A stretch of DNA of 30,508 nt, taken from positions 1 through 30,508 of the IMG/VR virus record IMGVR_UViG_3300037258_001212; one strand, written 5' to 3'. The position numbers and the translations under genes were made by a program. The DNA is from a virus. The notes beneath the pieces were generated by a model that was given only the letters and a program-made list of their open reading frames with translations, ran no database searches and was not told the DNA's origin. Positions 4,311 through 29,065 of the stretch are shown here, piece after piece; the first letter of the stretch is position 1; the number at the start of each line of letters is the position of its first letter.

Positions 4311-4322
4311 TCACAACTCGGC
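4301..4322. terminator. Bidirectional hairpin at convergent stops
   Basis: GCCGAG (4301-4306) pairs with CTCGGC (4317-4322). The 10-nt loop contains the stop codons of both converging genes (TAA at 4308-4310, TGA of the minus gene at 4313-4311). Neither side carries a strong T-run, so termination efficiency is uncertain. Confidence 0.5.
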
Positions 4323-5483
4323 AATCTCTCCAAATCGAGAACCGTCAATAAGTCGAATGTTGTTTTTCTGTGCCAAGGCGCGTGCCGCTGGCGTGAACGT
4401 GGAATTTGTGACAACACAACCTTCTGTTCCACCATAGAAAGGTATTGCACCAACGACCTCTTGCACCGCCTTGTTCCCAACAGCACCGGTGTATCGCTTT
4501 GCTTGAATTATGACTCTTCTCTCTCCCTTGATCGCGATAAGGTCTGCGCCTTGATCTCCGGTAGCAACAGTCGCAGTTACCTGCCAGCCATTGTCTAGTA
4601 GGACTTTTCCAACAGCGGTTTCAAAATCGACTCCAGACAGAAGTGCGAGTTCTTCGAGTGATTGTCTCTTGCCTTTCTGTCCTTCGTGATGTTTGACGAA
4701 TTTGTGCTTCAGCATCGCTTGAAGCCGGATGAAGCCTGTCGGAAGACCATAGGCCGTGCCATATTTCTTCAACCCTTTTCTCACTTCTATTTCGCTGTGG
4801 CCTTCTCGTCCGGCTATCTTAATGAAGCAATCGTTAACCTCCTTATCTAGTAAATGCATTCGTTCGTCACCATACTCGTCCAATACGGACACTTTCCGTT
4901 CAGCAATATCGAGAAATATGGTTACGATGTCCGAATACTCTGCTATTAATCGCTCGGCATTCTCAGTCTCCTCAACAACCTGTTTCGCTCTTTGCTCATC
5001 TGCGATCTGAGTCTCTCGTCTACGGAACCTATCCTGAATGATGCCAAGAAGCTCCTTAGCCGATTCCTCTGGAAGCTCATTTCGTTTTGCCCATCTCGAA
5101 ATAAGCCCGCTGATCCCTGAAGGCTGATGAACGATCTGCGGCACCACAACGTGAATTGCACTCACGCAACCCAGTGCAAGATTGGAAAGTTCGGTTTTGT
5201 TGTATCGGGTTCGAATGTTGACCTTGCACTCGTACTCGCGTATCACCGCTTCAATTCGCGGCTGATCCAGAAGGAACTTTACGAATGCAGTGGCAGATCG
5301 AGTGTCTTCAGATAGGGGCGGCGGTGCCTCAGTAGGGGACTTCTCTGGTGCCGCTTGTTGCGGTGCAGCAGCGGGTTGCTGGTCAACGAACAGAATGTCA
5401 CGGTATTTATCAGGGAGTGCCTTGCCCTGCTCCAGCAACCGCGCTATTTCCTGAATTTCTAATTGACCGAGAGGGGTTGCCAT
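4311..5483 (-). CDS. Mrr-type restriction endonuclease family protein
   Basis: Likely DNA-cleaving nuclease of the PD-(D/E)xK Mrr_cat class. In the 390-aa protein the C-terminal 110 residues carry the fold: FETAVGKVLLDNGWQVT (helix and Glu), GDQGADLIAI (Asp314) and VIIQAKRYTG (Gln327-Ala-Lys329), then the NKAVQEVVGA helix. The first 280 residues include a Pro/Ala-rich stretch (PAAAPQQAAPEKSPTEAPPP), a helical coiled-coil-like region and an unassigned part that may act as sensor or target recogniser. The start at 5483 is preferred to an upstream ATG because GGAG lies just before it and the upstream start would overlap the divergent gene at 5568. No methyltransferase sits beside it, so it may be a modification-dependent (type IV-like) enzyme, a defence role; a phage-DNA-processing role is the alternative. 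Confidence 0.82.
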   Translation of the reverse strand: MATPLGQLEIQEIARLLEQGKALPDKYRDILFVDQQPAAAPQQAAPEKSPTEAPPPLSEDTRSATAFVKFLLDQPRIEAVIREYECKVNIRTRYNKTELSNLALGCVSAIHVVVPQIVHQPSGISGLISRWAKRNELPEESAKELLGIIQDRFRRRETQIADEQRAKQVVEETENAERLIAEYSDIVTIFLDIAERKVSVLDEYGDERMHLLDKEVNDCFIKIAGREGHSEIEVRKGLKKYGTAYGLPTGFIRLQAMLKHKFVKHHEGQKGKRQSLEELALLSGVDFETAVGKVLLDNGWQVTATVATGDQGADLIAIKGERRVIIQAKRYTGAVGNKAVQEVVGAIPFYGGTEGCVVTNSTFTPAARALAQKNNIRLIDGSRFGEIAEL

Positions 5484-5555
5484 ATCTCTCCAGCGTGCGA
5501 AGCATTTAAGGTACTGCGAAACATCATAGGCAATATCCGTGTGAGCCGTCGAGGG

Positions 5556-5561
5556 TATACT
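5556..5561 (+). promoter_or_regulatory. -10-like TATACT immediately before a start codon (leaderless mRNA candidate)
   Basis: TATACT ends 6 nt before the ATG at 5568 and no SD is present, so a transcript from it would begin at or within a base or two of the start codon. No good -35 element is visible at 17 bp. Confidence 0.5.
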
Positions 5562-5567
5562 TCCCCC

Positions 5568-5777
5568 ATGGATACGAACGAACTTATCCGGCAACTCACC
5601 GAAGAACGGAACCGCATCGACGCGGTTATCAAGCTGTTATCTGGCACCATATACACCACCGCGAAGTATGTGGAACCCAAGACCCGCAAGCCGATGTCAG
5701 CCGCCGCACGTAAACGGATCGCGGCGGCACAAAAGAAGCGGTGGGCTGCGCGTAGAGATTCAATGACGAAGAAATAA
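5568..5777 (+). CDS. Small basic protein, probable nucleic-acid binding
   Basis: A 69-aa protein. The N-terminal half (ELIRQLTEERNRIDAVIKLL) is a predicted coiled-coil helix. The C-terminal half is strongly basic and Ala-rich (SAAARKRIAAAQKKRWAARR), like histone-tail or AT-hook-type small proteins. I have the impression that this motif is common in acidobacterial small proteins, but cannot verify that. The ATG follows a -10-like hexamer directly, suggesting leaderless translation. It is divergent from the Mrr gene, with 84 nt between starts, and precedes a second tiny gene whose SD overlaps this stop. It may be a regulator of the cassette. Confidence 0.68.
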   Translation: MDTNELIRQLTEERNRIDAVIKLLSGTIYTTAKYVEPKTRKPMSAAARKRIAAAQKKRWAARRDSMTKK

Positions 5778-6121: not shown

Positions 6122-7663
6122 TTAGCCGCCATTGCTAGGCGGGGTTCCCCATACAACGGTGTCGGGTAACGCAGAGCGGAATCCCACTTGAAACGCCATC
6201 GCCTCTTCCCGCGTCTTGAACATTGGAAGCGGAAATTCGTGCGGCGTTATTTTCCAACGGTCGCCGAAAGTGAAGCAGTGCTTGCCCCGGTAGCGTTGGT
6301 AATTGACATTGAATTCCGCACCATGCTCCCGCAGATACTTGGACAGTTTCATTGAAGCACGGGTCGTGTAGAACGTTACGGTCGGACTGCACCACGGCTC
6401 GATGTCGGCTTCAGTGACCGCATTTGACGCCTTCGCACCGGCGATGAAGGCCGCTTGCAAGAGAGCCGCGTGCGGATCGTCGCCAGCGGAACTGTCGGGA
6501 ACCGGAAGCTTGGTTAGGATCGGGTTGCCAGCCGAGGCATCGGGCACGCCCAACAGCCCCTCATCAATCGCCAGTTGGACTTCCTCAAGACGCCTGATCG
6601 CACGTGCGATCCTAGCCTCGCTGTCGCGGATCGGGTCAGCATCCACTGGACCGGAACCTTCCAAAAGATCGGCACGCATCTCGCTCAGCCGCTGGCTCAG
6701 CATCTCCTTGGGTGATCCGTACACCACCGGAGTCGGGGCGTCATCAACAGAAGCGGGCTGTATCGCGTCGTCAGCTTCATCGTCGCTTTCAGTCTTAGCA
6801 GGTAGACTACGGTTATTCCCGCCATTCCTGAGCGTCCTGAGATTGTCCTGCACCGTCCTCAGCGACAATTTGAGACCGGTACGCTTGGTGAATCTATCGA
6901 ACCACGGTATCCATTGGCCGTGCGGCAATCTTTCATTCATTTGCCAGAGCAAGGGGTACAGTTCAATCTCAAGACGTTCTTTGAACGGGCCGATAATCTG
7001 TGCGGCCTTGGCATAGATCGCACGTTCCAGTTCCTTTACATCGTCAAATACGCAATGCTGCGTATTTGAAACGGCAGCCGCAGTTTTTGGGGAAATTTTT
7101 TCTGACGATAGTATGGGTATCAACAGTCGACTAGCTGTGCTTGCTGTCATCGACCGATACTTACCCGTGGTCGTTTGCTTGAACTTCAAGCGTCCATCGT
7201 CTCTCCGGCCAAGAAACATATACGGCTGATCGCTGAGTTTATAGTTGTAGACCTGACCGGGTACTAACTCGATGGATTCCGATTCGCGTGCTGCACTGTC
7301 GAGGTACAGCTTGGTATCGGCCATGAACTGCACAATGGCTTCGCATCCAGCTATTTCCTCTGCCGTGAGGTCAACGTAACGGGAATAGTGACCGTGTTCG
7401 TACTCAGTCCTAATCTCTTCATCGGTGGCCTGACGAAGTTCCTTCTCCCAATCAGCGGGAGTGTAACTGTATTCGGCAGGAAAGTTCATATCCAAAATTT
7501 CCCACTGAGGCGGTTCATCGGGAGCGTCGAACAAGGGACAGATGTCGAGGACTTGGTGCAGGTACTCCGGCTGCACTGTGCCAATATAGCTAAAGGTGAC
7601 CCACACCCAAGCGGGACAACGCGCCTTGTTTGCTGTTGATGGCTTTGTCTTAGTCAGTTCCAT
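6122..7663 (-). CDS. 513-aa protein with DUF3102-like segment
   Basis: A large, mostly acidic protein of unknown function. The central segment, about residues 230-285 (LYPLLWQMNERLPHGQWIPW, then RTVQDNLRTLRNG), resembles DUF3102-type proteins of plasmids and phages, where 'LPHGxWxxW' is followed by a helix like those of ParB/HTH proteins. After it comes a low-complexity acidic linker with repeated 'DASAG/DSSAG'. The C-terminal 110 residues look like a separate alpha/beta domain (CFTFGDRWKITPHEF, FKTREEAMAFQVGF). It lies alone between accessory genes and the tail-tip gene. It could be a replication/partition-associated or regulatory DNA-binding protein. It is the largest non-structural unknown in the window. 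Confidence 0.65.
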   Translation of the reverse strand: MELTKTKPSTANKARCPAWVWVTFSYIGTVQPEYLHQVLDICPLFDAPDEPPQWEILDMNFPAEYSYTPADWEKELRQATDEEIRTEYEHGHYSRYVDLTAEEIAGCEAIVQFMADTKLYLDSAARESESIELVPGQVYNYKLSDQPYMFLGRRDDGRLKFKQTTTGKYRSMTASTASRLLIPILSSEKISPKTAAAVSNTQHCVFDDVKELERAIYAKAAQIIGPFKERLEIELYPLLWQMNERLPHGQWIPWFDRFTKRTGLKLSLRTVQDNLRTLRNGGNNRSLPAKTESDDEADDAIQPASVDDAPTPVVYGSPKEMLSQRLSEMRADLLEGSGPVDADPIRDSEARIARAIRRLEEVQLAIDEGLLGVPDASAGNPILTKLPVPDSSAGDDPHAALLQAAFIAGAKASNAVTEADIEPWCSPTVTFYTTRASMKLSKYLREHGAEFNVNYQRYRGKHCFTFGDRWKITPHEFPLPMFKTREEAMAFQVGFRSALPDTVVWGTPPSNGG

Positions 7664-11499: not shown

Positions 11500-12056
11500 T
11501 ATGACCCCCAAATCAGGGCTTGGTCGTTTAGCTGCTCAACCCAACCGAAGGCAGAGTCGTTCGGGTAGTAAAGCCGCTGATCGGCGGACGTGTAACGACG
11601 GCAGGTTGGGCGTGCGAGGTCGAGCATTCTCGACTCAAGCGTCAGGGAGATGGAAATTGTGTCGGTTCCGGGAGTGACGGTCGGAACGTCAACACAGCCA
11701 CTGAACTGGAGGTAGGGTGTTCCGATGACCGTGCATTGTGGGGTGACCAGAGCGAACCAGATGTTCGCGGTCGCACCGGGCTGGATGTCTGTCAGGCATT
11801 CGCCAAGGAGAACCGGGTCGATGCCGCTCAGGGTGACCGTTGTGCCGTCTGCGGTGACTTCTACGCCCTCGTTGATCGTGCCAATGCTGCCGAGGGTGCC
11901 GACGCCGAGAAAGGTGTGGCCGTCCCAAACCAGATTGCCCGGTCCCGTCCAGACATAGACGGTCTGACTCTTGAATGTCAGTTGGACGAGCCGAGCCGGG
12001 TACACCAATCCGGCTTGCATGGCCGTGGCGAGCGTTGAATCAAGTTCTCTGGGCAC
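11499..12056 (-). CDS. Tail protein, DUF2163 / BR0599 family
   Basis: 185 aa; baseplate/hub protein corresponding to GTA gp13. Family features: N-terminal LVQLTFKSQTVYVWTG, central IDPVLLGECLTD, then 'NIWFALVTPQCTVIG', 'PTVTPGTDTISISLTLESRM', and the conserved 'LARPTCRRYTSADQRLYYPN' stretch near the C-terminus. The start is GTG (12056), with AGGAG 8 nt upstream in the stem of a hairpin (12062-12081). It is followed by a TAATG-coupled gene. Minus-strand late gene; identity is fairly secure, exact location in the tip is inferred. Confidence 0.85.
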   Translation of the reverse strand: MPRELDSTLATAMQAGLVYPARLVQLTFKSQTVYVWTGPGNLVWDGHTFLGVGTLGSIGTINEGVEVTADGTTVTLSGIDPVLLGECLTDIQPGATANIWFALVTPQCTVIGTPYLQFSGCVDVPTVTPGTDTISISLTLESRMLDLARPTCRRYTSADQRLYYPNDSAFGWVEQLNDQALIWGS

Positions 12057-12061
12057 GTTCG

Positions 12062-12081
12062 GGTCTCCTGTAAAGGAGTCC
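12062..12081 (-). promoter_or_regulatory. SD-sequestering hairpin before the DUF2163 gene
   Basis: On the minus strand GGACTCCT pairs with AGGAGACC (CTCCT/AGGAG plus GG/CC across one mismatch, TTAC loop). The AGGAG is the SD of the GTG start at 12056. Confidence 0.55.
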
Positions 12082-12094
12082 GAAAGTCAGGAAA

Positions 12095-12122
12095 TTGTGG
12101 GGTCACACCGCTCTGCTACGAT
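12095..12122 (+). promoter_or_regulatory. Candidate promoter for the plus-strand gene at 12142
   Basis: TTGTGG (12095-12100) and TACGAT (12117-12122) are separated by 16 nt, with a TGC extended -10. A start site near 12129 would precede the SD at 12132-12136. Confidence 0.42.
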
Positions 12123-12141
12123 TGCTCAACTGGAGGCTAAC

Positions 12142-12396
12142 TTGGCGATTGAACTTCAAACTGACGGCACCGGTAATGTCATTACATGCCCAATGACAGG
12201 GTGGGGAATTAAGCCGGTTGCGGAAACGATGATTCTTCTAGCTATCGAGTATGTAGACAGTCCAGAGCAACTCGAAACAGGGGAGCGCAAGCAGCTACAG
12301 GCCATACTGCACTCACACCAAGCCCTAGAGCTTGCGGAGGAACTGAAAAAGGTAGTGGCACTTCTCGAACCACCACCACTTGGTTCGTTGAACTAA
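12142..12396 (+). CDS. Plus-strand 'moron' gene inside the tail operon, unknown function
   Basis: 84 aa on the strand opposite to all flanking tail genes. The TTG start is chosen for GGAGG 5 nt upstream; the frame upstream of it looks non-coding and runs antisense to the DUF2163 gene. The product reads as a real soluble protein: AIELQTDGTGNVITCPMTGW, then ETMILLAIEYVDSPEQLETG, then a long helix HQALELAEELKKVVALLEPP. No family recognised. It has its own promoter candidate and a terminator-like hairpin at its end, the hallmarks of a moron (an added gene expressed in the lysogen). Superinfection exclusion or host-benefit roles are possible but unproven. Confidence 0.66.
   Translation: MAIELQTDGTGNVITCPMTGWGIKPVAETMILLAIEYVDSPEQLETGERKQLQAILHSHQALELAEELKKVVALLEPPPLGSLN
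12366..12387 (+). terminator. Terminator-like hairpin at the end of the plus-strand gene
   Basis: CGAACCA (12366-12372) pairs perfectly with TGGTTCG (12381-12387) around an 8-nt loop, overlapping the last codons. It is followed by TTG but lacks a T-run, so it is a weak terminator candidate. Confidence 0.35.
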
Positions 12397-15499: not shown

Positions 15500-15769
15500 T
15501 TAGTGGGCAGTCGAAGGGCGACGTGCTCGCTGCTCATTGACTGCCTTCACGCTTCCAGCGACCAGATGCGGAGCGGCGGCAGCGATGCCACGCTGCACGG
15601 CAGCTTCTACCTGTGCTGGGTCGTTCGAGCCACGGGCGTCAATGTTCCAGTGGTGGGTTGTGCTGCCACCGAGACCGGACAGTTTGTAGTTTGGCGTGAC
15701 ATAACCACGGGCGGAGATAATCTCCGGTCCGTGTTCGCCGACCAATCGCCGGCCCGTCCATATAGCCAC
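15500..15769 (-). CDS. Frame-displaced C-terminal end of tape measure protein
   Basis: This reading frame carries the normal tape-measure ending that the main frame loses: VGEHGPEIISARGYVTPNY, then a Gly/His stretch and NDPAQVEAAVQRGIAAAAPH. The main frame gives GGYMDGPAIGRRTRTG instead; moving +1 at 15742-15743 restores GGYMDGPAI-VGEHGPEI, the typical form of this conserved motif. The segment up to the 15500 stop is intact and ends just before the fibre gene region. The coordinates mark the whole open frame; only the part below about 15742 is expected to be tape measure. Either a mutation, an assembly base error or a programmed +1 shift. Confidence 0.7.
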   Translation of the reverse strand: MAIWTGRRLVGEHGPEIISARGYVTPNYKLSGLGGSTTHHWNIDARGSNDPAQVEAAVQRGIAAAAPHLVAGSVKAVNEQRARRPSTAH

Positions 15770-18218
15770 CCGAAGCGAAGCCGGGGAGGATCGTTTTCAG
15801 CAGCCCACCGAATACCCCGCCGAGCTTGCCCGCAGCAGTGCCGGTGACCGAGCCGATGCCTTTTGCCACTGAATCCACGCCCGAGGCCATCCGCACATAC
15901 ATCGGATTAGAGGAAGAGCCTAGCTGTGCTCCCTTGCCGAGGCCGAACATGCCGAGGACTGAACTCTCGGCCTTATTGAGGCCGGTGCTGGCAACGCCAC
16001 GAAACAAGGACTCGCCGACACCTTTGAAGTTCGTCCGTTTGCCCATCATCCCGTTCAGGATTTGCTCATTCAGGCTTGTTAGCGTCGATGTGACGAGTTC
16101 ACGCATTTGCTTGGCGGCGTCGTGGGACGCTGCAACAAACTCCTCCAGACCGTCCTTTGCCCCGCCGAGCGCGGTGGAGCTATTAATTGCCCACTGATCG
16201 CTGACAGTCGTGCGAGAGGCTGTACCAGACACGGTTGCGATCTGAGCGTCCAACTCTTTGCCCTTGCCATCATCCAAATCCTGTTGGGTGAGCGCGGCTT
16301 TCTTGCTTTGAAGGATGGACAACTGGGCAGCATAGTCCGCTGCGTGATCTGCCGCCGCTTGGATCGCAGCATCGTGCTTCGTGAGAGCACCGGTGGATAC
16401 TTCATGCTCCCGCGTAAGGGCATTCAGAGAAAACGTGTTCTTCAGGTTCGCTTCGTCGAGCTTTGCCTGTGCAGCGGCCATGTGAGCGGCTTGCTCGTCC
16501 AATGTATCGGAGAGCCGCTGTGCGGTCTCATCCCAACGCTGGATGGTCTCTGCATTCTTCTTGGCCTCGGCGTCGAGCTTGCGTCCGGCCTCATCGAGGG
16601 CACGGAGCCATGCTTGGTTCGCATCGGCGAACTTGCTGAGTGCGAACTGATGGACTGCCTCGGCGACCTTTCCGGTGCCCTTTGCGGTCGCGTCAGCCAG
16701 TCGTTCCCAAAACGCGACCGTCTCACCGACCGTGACTTCATGGTCAGCCTTCAGGGCTGTGAACTGTGCCTCCATCGCCTTCGTTTTCTCGGCAATTTCT
16801 TTTGAAGTCTTGTCTCCGCTGGTGATGTCGCCCACTCCAGTGAAGCCGGACGTGTCGCCCCGCTGCGCGTTGCGTTGGCGGATCGCATCCATAATCGACC
16901 CGACTTGATCGGTCTGCGAAGGCTTGTTCAGACCGAGGGAAGACAGGAGCATATCAATGGACTTGCGCTGGTACTTCGTGGAATCGGCCAACAGGCCGCT
17001 GCCGAGCTTGGTGAACGTGCCGCCCGTAACGATGGCTGCAACGCCCGTGGCGGCTGCGGCCAAGTCGTAAACTCGGAAAGCCGCAAACTCAAAGGCACGA
17101 CCTATGCCCACCCCGATGTCCCTGAATGCCTCCATGGCACCGTTGCCGCCTGAGACGGTGTTGAGAATCTTATCGAGGGCAGGGAGCAAGCCCTCCGTGA
17201 AGGCCAGTCCCGCACCGGTAGCTTCCTGCCCCAATTCCTTGAGCCGCTGTTGGGTGTGCTCCAGAGCCTCGGCGGTTTCAGAATCCAGCATGTTGCCGGT
17301 TCGCTGAGCGGCGTCGTGGTACTCGTCCCAATGTTGGCCAAGTTCGATGATGGTCGGGATTTGGTCGGCACCGCTCTTGCCGAGCAAAGCGGTGGCGAGT
17401 TCTACGCGGCGGATTGGCGACTCGGTTGCTGCAAGGGTATCGGCGAACTTCTTGAACGCAACTTCGGCACCGTCCTGCCGACCGGCAAGCTCAGTGGCAT
17501 TGAGGCCAAGAGCCTTCATGAACGCAGAAGCCGTCTTGTTGCCTTCAGTCGCCTGACCGATGGTTTTATCCATCTTCGCTACGGCACTGGTCATGCCGTC
17601 AAAGTCCCCTCCTGTGACTGTTGCAGCATAATGCAGGGTGGATAGGGTCTCGACAGCGAGGCCGGTCTTCGCTGAGGCACGCTGGATCGTTTCACCGAAC
17701 TCTAGGGAGGCTTCGACAGCCTCGCGCATCTTGTTGACGAGGACTCCGGCGACGATGCCCGCCGCAGCTATGCCAGCCGTTGCGCCGGACATAGACTCAG
17801 TGATTCCCAAGCTGCCCAGATGTTCGGACAAGCGGTCGTGGAGATAGCCCCCAGTGCTCTGCGATTCCTTTTCAACAGCCGATGCCTCAGCCAGCCGCAT
17901 CTTGGCCGCTGTGAGGCGTTGCAGGGAAGCGGCCTGAGCGTTAGCGGCTGTGGCACCGTCGAGGTATCCACGGTTGATGTAGGTCTGAATTTTACCGTTG
18001 TCGGCGTATGCGGCCTTTTCGTCGGCCTTGGCTTTGACGATACGGAGACTTTGAGCAGAGACGGTATCGCCAGAGAATTTGGCAGCAAGAGCCTGTGCCT
18101 TCGCAGCCTGTTGGGCATCAATGGCGGCTTGCCGAGCGGAGGCACCGACACGAGCAATTTGTTTTGCCGCTGATTCAGCACCTGTCGCAGATACTTTGAT
18201 GTCTAGTTCGTTAGGCAT
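15639..18218 (-). CDS. Tape measure protein (main frame)
   Basis: Determines tail length and spans the tail tube. The main frame gives 859 aa: a coiled-coil start (SARQAAIDAQQAAKAQALAA), a hydrophobic segment near residues 145-165 (ATAGIAAAGIVAGVLVNK), the phage_tail_MAAB-like region (FGETIQRASAKTGLAVETL to LGKSGADQIPTIIELG), long helical Ala/Lys/Glu-rich stretches, and Gly/Ala-rich segments near the end (GKLGGVFGGLLKTILPGFA). The frame is broken near 15742, so the last 34 residues after GPAI are probably not authentic and the full protein would be about 906 aa. The start overlaps the gp10-like gene stop by 8 nt. Tape-measure identity is firm. Confidence 0.9.
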   Translation of the reverse strand: MPNELDIKVSATGAESAAKQIARVGASARQAAIDAQQAAKAQALAAKFSGDTVSAQSLRIVKAKADEKAAYADNGKIQTYINRGYLDGATAANAQAASLQRLTAAKMRLAEASAVEKESQSTGGYLHDRLSEHLGSLGITESMSGATAGIAAAGIVAGVLVNKMREAVEASLEFGETIQRASAKTGLAVETLSTLHYAATVTGGDFDGMTSAVAKMDKTIGQATEGNKTASAFMKALGLNATELAGRQDGAEVAFKKFADTLAATESPIRRVELATALLGKSGADQIPTIIELGQHWDEYHDAAQRTGNMLDSETAEALEHTQQRLKELGQEATGAGLAFTEGLLPALDKILNTVSGGNGAMEAFRDIGVGIGRAFEFAAFRVYDLAAAATGVAAIVTGGTFTKLGSGLLADSTKYQRKSIDMLLSSLGLNKPSQTDQVGSIMDAIRQRNAQRGDTSGFTGVGDITSGDKTSKEIAEKTKAMEAQFTALKADHEVTVGETVAFWERLADATAKGTGKVAEAVHQFALSKFADANQAWLRALDEAGRKLDAEAKKNAETIQRWDETAQRLSDTLDEQAAHMAAAQAKLDEANLKNTFSLNALTREHEVSTGALTKHDAAIQAAADHAADYAAQLSILQSKKAALTQQDLDDGKGKELDAQIATVSGTASRTTVSDQWAINSSTALGGAKDGLEEFVAASHDAAKQMRELVTSTLTSLNEQILNGMMGKRTNFKGVGESLFRGVASTGLNKAESSVLGMFGLGKGAQLGSSSNPMYVRMASGVDSVAKGIGSVTGTAAGKLGGVFGGLLKTILPGFASGGYMDGPAIGRRTRTGDYLRPWLCHAKLQTVRSRWQHNPPLEH

Positions 18219-27384: not shown

Positions 27385-27881
27385 CAGTTGACTCCATGGA
27401 TGTCAGCGGTATCCACACTCTTTGTCATGCTCATAAATTCCTCAAACGGATCTTCGGCCACGGCTACAGGTGCAACCTGAATACGTGATCGGGATGCCGG
27501 GGTCATGCCGAACTCCACTAGGAATTTGCGCATCAGGTCGAGGGCAGTGTTGGCAACGCCCACAAAAGGATTTTGGATGGGATACCCAGACTTGGGTGAT
27601 TTGATGACTGCACCAAATTTCTGAACCTGAGTGTCGGCATGAACCCACCGGCTCCAAGCTGAGCAATAGGCAGCGAGGGCCGCACGATCAACGGACGTGA
27701 GGAGGCCGAGGCTAGTTAGCTCTTTGCTGATCCGTCGCCATTCCTTTTTCGCATCGGCGTCCAGATGGGACGGGCATGTGGGCGTACCCGTAGGCTTCGG
27801 CTCCCGGCGATTGAGTGGCCGGTGGCCGGGGTTGCCAGCGAGTTCTTTGAGGGCGGTTGGTTTGGGCTTGCGTCCGGGCAT
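27384..27881 (-). CDS. Terminase small subunit, P27 family
   Basis: 165 aa; recognises phage DNA for packaging. The start at 27881 (MPGRKPKPTALKELAGNPGH) is the classic P27 N-terminus; a longer open frame upstream overlaps the methyltransferase gene. 'KKEWRRISKELTSLGLLTSV' and 'DRAALAAYCSAWSRWVHADT' follow the family pattern, and the C-terminus 'ANTALDLMRKFLVEFGMTPA' (oligomerisation helices) is also typical. Its ATG overlaps the TGA of the preceding gene. The next gene is coupled. Confidence 0.93.
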   Translation of the reverse strand: MPGRKPKPTALKELAGNPGHRPLNRREPKPTGTPTCPSHLDADAKKEWRRISKELTSLGLLTSVDRAALAAYCSAWSRWVHADTQVQKFGAVIKSPKSGYPIQNPFVGVANTALDLMRKFLVEFGMTPASRSRIQVAPVAVAEDPFEEFMSMTKSVDTADIHGVN

Positions 27882-29065
27882 CAGAGACGCTCCGCTTTCT
27901 TGCCGGTCAAGGTCTCCCAGCGGGCAACGATCACGTCGCAATAGCGCGGATCGAGTTCCATCAGGTTGGCCGTTCGCCCGGTCTGTTCGCACGCCATGAG
28001 GGTGGAACCGGAGCCGCCGAAGAGGTCGAGCACCCATTGGCCTTTGAGGCTGCTATTGGCGAGGCAATACTCGATCAGGGCGACCGGCTTCATTGTGGGG
28101 TGCTCGGTGCTTCGGGAAGGCCGGTCAAATTCAAGCAAGGTGGTCTGTTTGCGGTCGCCATGCCACGTGTGCGCCGCACCGGGAGCCCAGCCGTACAAAA
28201 TGGGCTCGTGCTTCCACTGGTAGTCCCCGCGCCCCAACACGAGGCTATTCTTCGCCCACACGAGGCATGACCGGAGAGACCAGCCAGCCTCCATGAAAGA
28301 AGTGCGGAAATGGTGGCCTTGGAGGTCGGCGTGGGCGACATAGATCGCTCCGCCCGGCTTGGTAACCGCTAGGGCGGCAGCGAATGCGTCATGGAGGAAC
28401 TGCCTGAAGCGGTCATCGTCCATTGAGTCGTTCTGGATGCTCAGGGCATCCTTGGTCTTTCCCTCATAGGCGACGTTGTAGGGTGGGTCAGTCCAGACCA
28501 TATCGGCCTTCTCACCGTCCATGAGTCTGGCCACATCGGATTCGACAGTTGCGTCACCGCAAAGGAGACGGTGGTTTCCGAGCAGGATCAGGTCGCCAAG
28601 CTTGGTGACGGGATCGGCAGGAGGCTCCGATACATCGTCCTCGTCTTCAAGGCCGATAGAGCGGGGAAGGATGCTATTGAGTTCGGCGTCCGTGAAGTAT
28701 GGCTCCAAGTCCATCTCCTCGGCAAGTTCGCCAAGGACATCGGGATTCCATTCCAGACCAAGTTCGGATGACCGGTTGTCGGCGATGGCAAGCTGTTTGG
28801 CTTTGTCATCAGCCGACAGGTCGAGGTCAATGCGTTGGACTGCGATGAGTTGGGTGCCGTCAGTGGGGACGACGATAACGTCTTCGAATCCGGCAGCGGC
28901 GGCATTGGACGCGGTTTTGTTGCCCGCGATAATGACGCCATGCTTGTCGATCAGTATGGAACGACCGGCGCCGAATTCTTTGAGGGAATGTTCGACCGCA
29001 GCATTGCCGCGTTTCGTGCCCTTGTTGGCGTTTCGGGAATCTTGTTGGAGTTCGCTAAGCTTCAT
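27881..29065 (-). CDS. ParB-like/DNA methyltransferase fusion
   Basis: 394 aa. Residues 1-100 form a ParB/sulfiredoxin-like domain (MKLSELQQDSRNANKG, then GRSILIDKHGVIIAGNKTAS). The C-terminal part is a DNA amino-methyltransferase with the catalytic motif DPPY (193-196) before the SAM motif FGGSGS (from residue 349), the beta-type order of N6-adenine or N4-cytosine enzymes. It probably protects phage DNA from host restriction or marks packaging sites. It overlaps TerS by 1 nt, so it is part of the late operon. No SD is visible; the region 29066-29314 upstream holds an antisense small gene. Confidence 0.9.
   Translation of the reverse strand: MKLSELQQDSRNANKGTKRGNAAVEHSLKEFGAGRSILIDKHGVIIAGNKTASNAAAAGFEDVIVVPTDGTQLIAVQRIDLDLSADDKAKQLAIADNRSSELGLEWNPDVLGELAEEMDLEPYFTDAELNSILPRSIGLEDEDDVSEPPADPVTKLGDLILLGNHRLLCGDATVESDVARLMDGEKADMVWTDPPYNVAYEGKTKDALSIQNDSMDDDRFRQFLHDAFAAALAVTKPGGAIYVAHADLQGHHFRTSFMEAGWSLRSCLVWAKNSLVLGRGDYQWKHEPILYGWAPGAAHTWHGDRKQTTLLEFDRPSRSTEHPTMKPVALIEYCLANSSLKGQWVLDLFGGSGSTLMACEQTGRTANLMELDPRYCDVIVARWETLTGKKAERL

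Follow-up and report, generated by a model that had tools for sequence, protein, structure and literature searches.

Does the tape measure gene of the uncultivated virus IMGVR_UViG_3300037258_001212 end where its open reading frame ends? In the window, that is, the whole stretch of DNA analyzed (the 30,508 bases of the record), the main tape measure ORF runs from 18218 to 15639 on the minus strand and codes for 859 aa. The initial annotation had proposed a frame break in the C-terminus of this protein, and we found that homology to relatives indeed leaves the main frame at I825 and resumes in the +1 frame. The first base of the record is that of the integrase ATG (phrog_1) and the last is that of a stop codon, both exactly, a coincidence of record edges and gene borders that suggests a provirus cut to these borders. 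The minus strand carries the structural genes: small and large terminase, portal, protease, capsid, adaptor, and head closure in the head part, followed by tail terminator, major tail protein, a chaperone pair, an HK97-gp10-like protein, the tape measure, a collagen/GDSL fibre, the distal tail protein, and the central fibre. Outside this operon, the minus-strand gene at 27881-29065 codes for a DNA methyltransferase fused to a ParB-like domain (phrog_498, PF01555), a combination already known from phages. The minus-strand gene at 4311-5594 carries a C-terminal Mrr-type restriction endonuclease domain (PF04471, E 1.7e-28) and is possibly a provirus-borne defence gene; family searches with the adjoining frame at 6122-7663 (513 aa) gave no significant match.

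The in-frame part of the tape measure (residues 1-825, 15744-18218, minus strand) was assigned by three lines of evidence. A Tape_meas_lam_C domain (Pfam PF09718) is found at residues 683-750 (E 3.6e-7, 30.6 bits against a cut-off of 23), the main frame matches PHROG profiles of tail length tape measure families, and the protein of one relative, L010, is 41% identical to it across residues 1-825. The gene shares with lambda-type tape measures, of the lambda gpH kind, the same C-terminal domain and the gene order, after the major tail protein and the chaperone pair and before the tail-tip genes, and its VGExGPE end is that of its relatives. However, in this record only, the frame is broken 80 codons short of the end, and the conserved C-terminal end is present in the +1 frame and not in the main frame. 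Hence, it is the integrity of the gene that fails and not its kinship. The whole gene, from 18218 to 15500 on the minus strand, looks mosaic: the similarity of residues 154-435 is to a prophage of Acidobacteriaceae bacterium TAA 166 (L007, 46%) and that of the later part is to the relative L004 (52%), the first part of the L004 protein having no comparable match.

The break itself can be placed precisely. The main frame reads GGYMDGPAI and then enters an Arg-rich tail of 34 residues, GRRTRTGDYLRPWLCHAKLQTVRSRWQHNPPLEH, while the +1 frame goes on as LVGEHGPEIISARGYVTPNYKL until a stop at 15500, so that the normal end, VGEHGPEI...RRPSTAH, is intact but out of frame. In BLASTP comparisons with L004, residues 477 to 825 of the main frame align at 52% identity, with no match beyond I825, and the +1 frame aligns at 54% identity starting with its own residue 9. 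The two matches meet at residue 694 of the L004 protein, which confines the break to one codon, and switching frames there gains or loses 0 residues relative to L004. The codon of I825 occupies 15746-15744 and that of the +1-frame Val 15742-15740, leaving the single base 15743 between them as the break point on the minus strand, as located by sequence and the L004 alignment. It had been proposed that removing one base at 15742-15743 restores a protein of 906 aa; this position holds, but coordinate arithmetic gives 905 residues for the joined frames. Based on homology and codon score, the natural C-terminal end of the tape measure spans 15500-15742 (minus strand, 80 codons and a stop), and its stop lies 41 bases ahead of the likely ATG of the next gene (15458). 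The main-frame tail (15639-15743, minus strand, 34 codons and a stop) has no match among relatives after I825 and a codon score that disqualifies it as a genuine coding end; its stop at 15639 would put 180 bases ahead of the same ATG. An 89-aa ORF starting at GTG 15769 was listed for the +1 frame, and its first eight or so residues are mere frame overlap, without homology in most relatives.

If the break belonged to the family, relatives should carry it as well. Five viral contigs were found through the +1 end and at least 23 more through alignment of ends; further relatives came from tape measure alignment or from the capsid. Repeat loci of the same contigs (L037, L039, L040, L041, L044, L046, L049, and L008) were removed before counting. 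Among the matches listed, all 35 loci with a +1-end match have it within a single long ORF that is open for 416 codons or more ahead of the match; the shortest opening (416 codons) is that of L025, which is cut by its contig edge. Main-frame and +1-end matches share one ORF in all 22 loci that have both, again among the matches listed; an ORF was counted as shared when the one containing the +1-frame match also enclosed the best main-frame match. The most complete example is L010, with residues 1-825 and then the +1 end within one ORF of 861 codons. None of the 35 listed loci with a +1-end match shows the break. The match values of L010 and L038, and those of L042 and L043, are pairwise identical, so that these loci may be near-copies and the independent counts may be nearer 33 and 20 than 35 and 22. 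L033, L034, and L036 match neither the main nor the +1 frame, and L009, which has the motif in one frame and no significant match, was left out of the count. L007 and L008, which are the same DNA, match residues 154-435 only and have a tape measure without the VGExGPE end, which makes them uninformative on the break. As relatives carry both parts in one ORF, the Arg-rich tail of 34 residues is an out-of-frame translation. None of the relatives examined combines the extra base with a conserved main-frame terminus, a result opposite to the one that would have refuted the initial reading.

These relatives are distant, the closest being about 40-60% identical in protein among the matches listed. 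A search for exact 27-base matches detected no near-identical viral contig in the searched set, which may omit near records, and neither the main frame nor the +1 end had a tblastn match in 50,697 phage records.

By itself, the openness of the +1 frame is little proof, because 1173 of 9416 off-frame 80-codon windows in the genes of this record (12.5%) are open. It is homology and codon usage that raise this frame above chance. We trained a codon model on twelve other genes of the record, holding out the tape measure, and scored the 33 codons past the break, obtaining -11.22 for the main frame, -2.15 for the third frame, and +7.26 for the +1 frame. In the tape measure body, no in-frame window out of 790 scores as low as -11.22 and, in each wrong frame, none of 790 windows reaches +7.26, the windows being overlapping and not independent. 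Past the break, the main frame scores like a wrong frame and the +1 frame like coding sequence. The initial reading of the +1 frame as the normal tape measure ending, open to 15500, is in agreement with both the homology in relatives and these scores.

Altogether, the break is very probably an accidental one-base indel in an otherwise ordinary tape measure gene. A single-base indel would have broken the lambda-type frame 80 codons short of the natural terminus, in this record alone, and the sequence as given would yield 825 normal residues and 34 meaningless ones before the stop at 15639, with the conserved end kept intact and out of frame. Since this end has gained no stop and has kept its codon usage, the indel is likely to be recent or an artefact. 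A single event across 30 kb is compatible with an error as well as with a mutation, and we give the two near-equal weight.

The chance that the base is an error of the assembled record, the gene being intact in the viral DNA and the base count of the contig wrong, is only just short of even. The break is the sole one found in the record, and the frame downstream shows no decay. It also sits in a short inverted repeat (GCCGGCGATTGGTCGGC) that forms a hairpin in the predicted fold, and short inverted repeats are places where copying and sequencing can slip. On the other hand, the site offers a GG pair and no long homopolymer, so that no obvious error-prone run explains the break, and indel errors are uncommon in short-read assembly. 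Slightly below an even chance is a real and recent mutation in this provirus copy, by which the conserved tape measure end would be lost and normal tails no longer made. The record resembles a trimmed provirus in its integrase ATG start and stop-codon end, and proviruses gather lesions of this kind; against a mutation, the other structural genes that can be checked are intact, so that decay does not extend further.

Comparison with the available relatives revealed no other broken gene in the record, which speaks against both general decay and generally poor sequence. Two further breaks were suspected and rejected. One was at the end of the capsid gene (21675), where L033 has the following frame (21616-21389) fused to its capsid; in L034 and L035, this stretch forms an ORF of its own. 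The other was in the tail gene at 12056-11499, suspected since only the last half of its PHROG profile is covered. An AGGAG stands ahead of this gene's own start, and inspection by eye revealed no profile-like reading upstream in any frame. In L017, its counterpart and the distal tail gene form one ORF, indicating that the family is not wholly uniform at this junction. Within the minus-strand tail operon, a plus-strand ORF (11968-12396) separates the distal tail gene from the tail gene that follows, whose start it overlaps; its BssS-like match is weak (E 0.034) and below the cut-off. Three locus ORFs matched by two frames of the record, antisense to tail or capsid genes, were taken as coding-strand shadows. 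As for L033, its head protease is split across two overlapping frames (L033:4259-5048) and its capsid ORF extends into the next small gene; these features indicate that the L033 record probably has frame breaks of its own.

A programmed +1 frameshift yielding two tape measure forms in this lineage is, in our judgement, very improbable. Both frames are open across the overlap, and phage structural genes offer a precedent: in Listeria phage PSA, cps and tsh are expressed through +1 shifts at a CCC codon immediately ahead of a pseudoknot or a stop (PMC5009743). The tape measure break shares with PSA the +1 direction and the location in a structural gene; however, neither the CCC codon nor the pseudoknot or stop of PSA was seen here. 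Judged by eye against the sites named in PMC5009743, the codons at the break (GCG ATT GGT CGG CGA) contain no CCC_UGA-like site, and no stop stands beside it, the 0-frame stop being 34 codons downstream. The RNA fold at the break, in a pseudoknot-free model, is mildly better than that of shuffled sequences (z -1.70, 12 of 200 shuffles as stable). The arrangement occurs in 0 of the 22 listed relatives with both parts, all of which use one ORF; a family-wide programmed shift is not supported by such a distribution. The open-licence literature searched held no report of a frameshift inside the end of a tape measure gene.

The likely programmed shift of this family lies upstream, in the same operon. 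In lambda, the tail chaperone gpG/gpGT is made with a programmed -1 frameshift, and a pair of this type is present here at 19447-18681 (minus strand), with frames at 19447-19046 and 19082-18681 in a -1 arrangement. All 15 relatives tested, each with the two parts on the same strand, show overlapping frames with the second at -1 relative to the first. Seven of these 15, and this record (AAACCCC, 19070-19064), have an X_XXY_YYZ heptamer in the 0 frame, and no strict heptamer was found in the other eight. This pattern points to a probable programmed -1 frameshift of the lambda gpG/gpGT type that joins the chaperone frames at the slippery AAACCCC. Unlike this pair, with its -1 direction, conserved arrangement, and heptamers, the tape measure break has none of these features; judging from the arrangements compared, the predicted chaperone shift is kept through evolution in this family and the tape measure break is not.

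The distance of the closest relatives, about 40-60% identical in protein, leaves room for a shift peculiar to this lineage. In that case, ribosomes would shift +1 at some rate to make a short and a full tape measure protein, the end domain being rationed like the T part of gpG/gpGT, a scenario to which we assign a very low probability. Lineage-specific recoding of this kind is highly doubtful, as no signal in the sequence supports it. Among the three explanations offered initially, truncation and base error both stand, and a conserved programmed +1 shift is not supported, given the 22 single-ORF relatives and a break at which none of the described +1-type slippery elements of phages was seen. 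Least credible of all is an independent small gene initiated at GTG 15769: the 89-aa ORF exists, but the same stretch is the end of one protein in relatives and, by eye, no Shine-Dalgarno-like sequence precedes that GTG.

The preferred reading, an accidental one-base indel, matters mostly for how this record is annotated. The Arg-rich tail of 34 residues should not be taken for a genuine protein terminus, and the record should be flagged for a frame break in its tape measure gene. The break opens no new question of recoding. If the base is really in the DNA, loss of the conserved tape measure end would leave a tail-defective copy, one that is probably unable to make normal tails.
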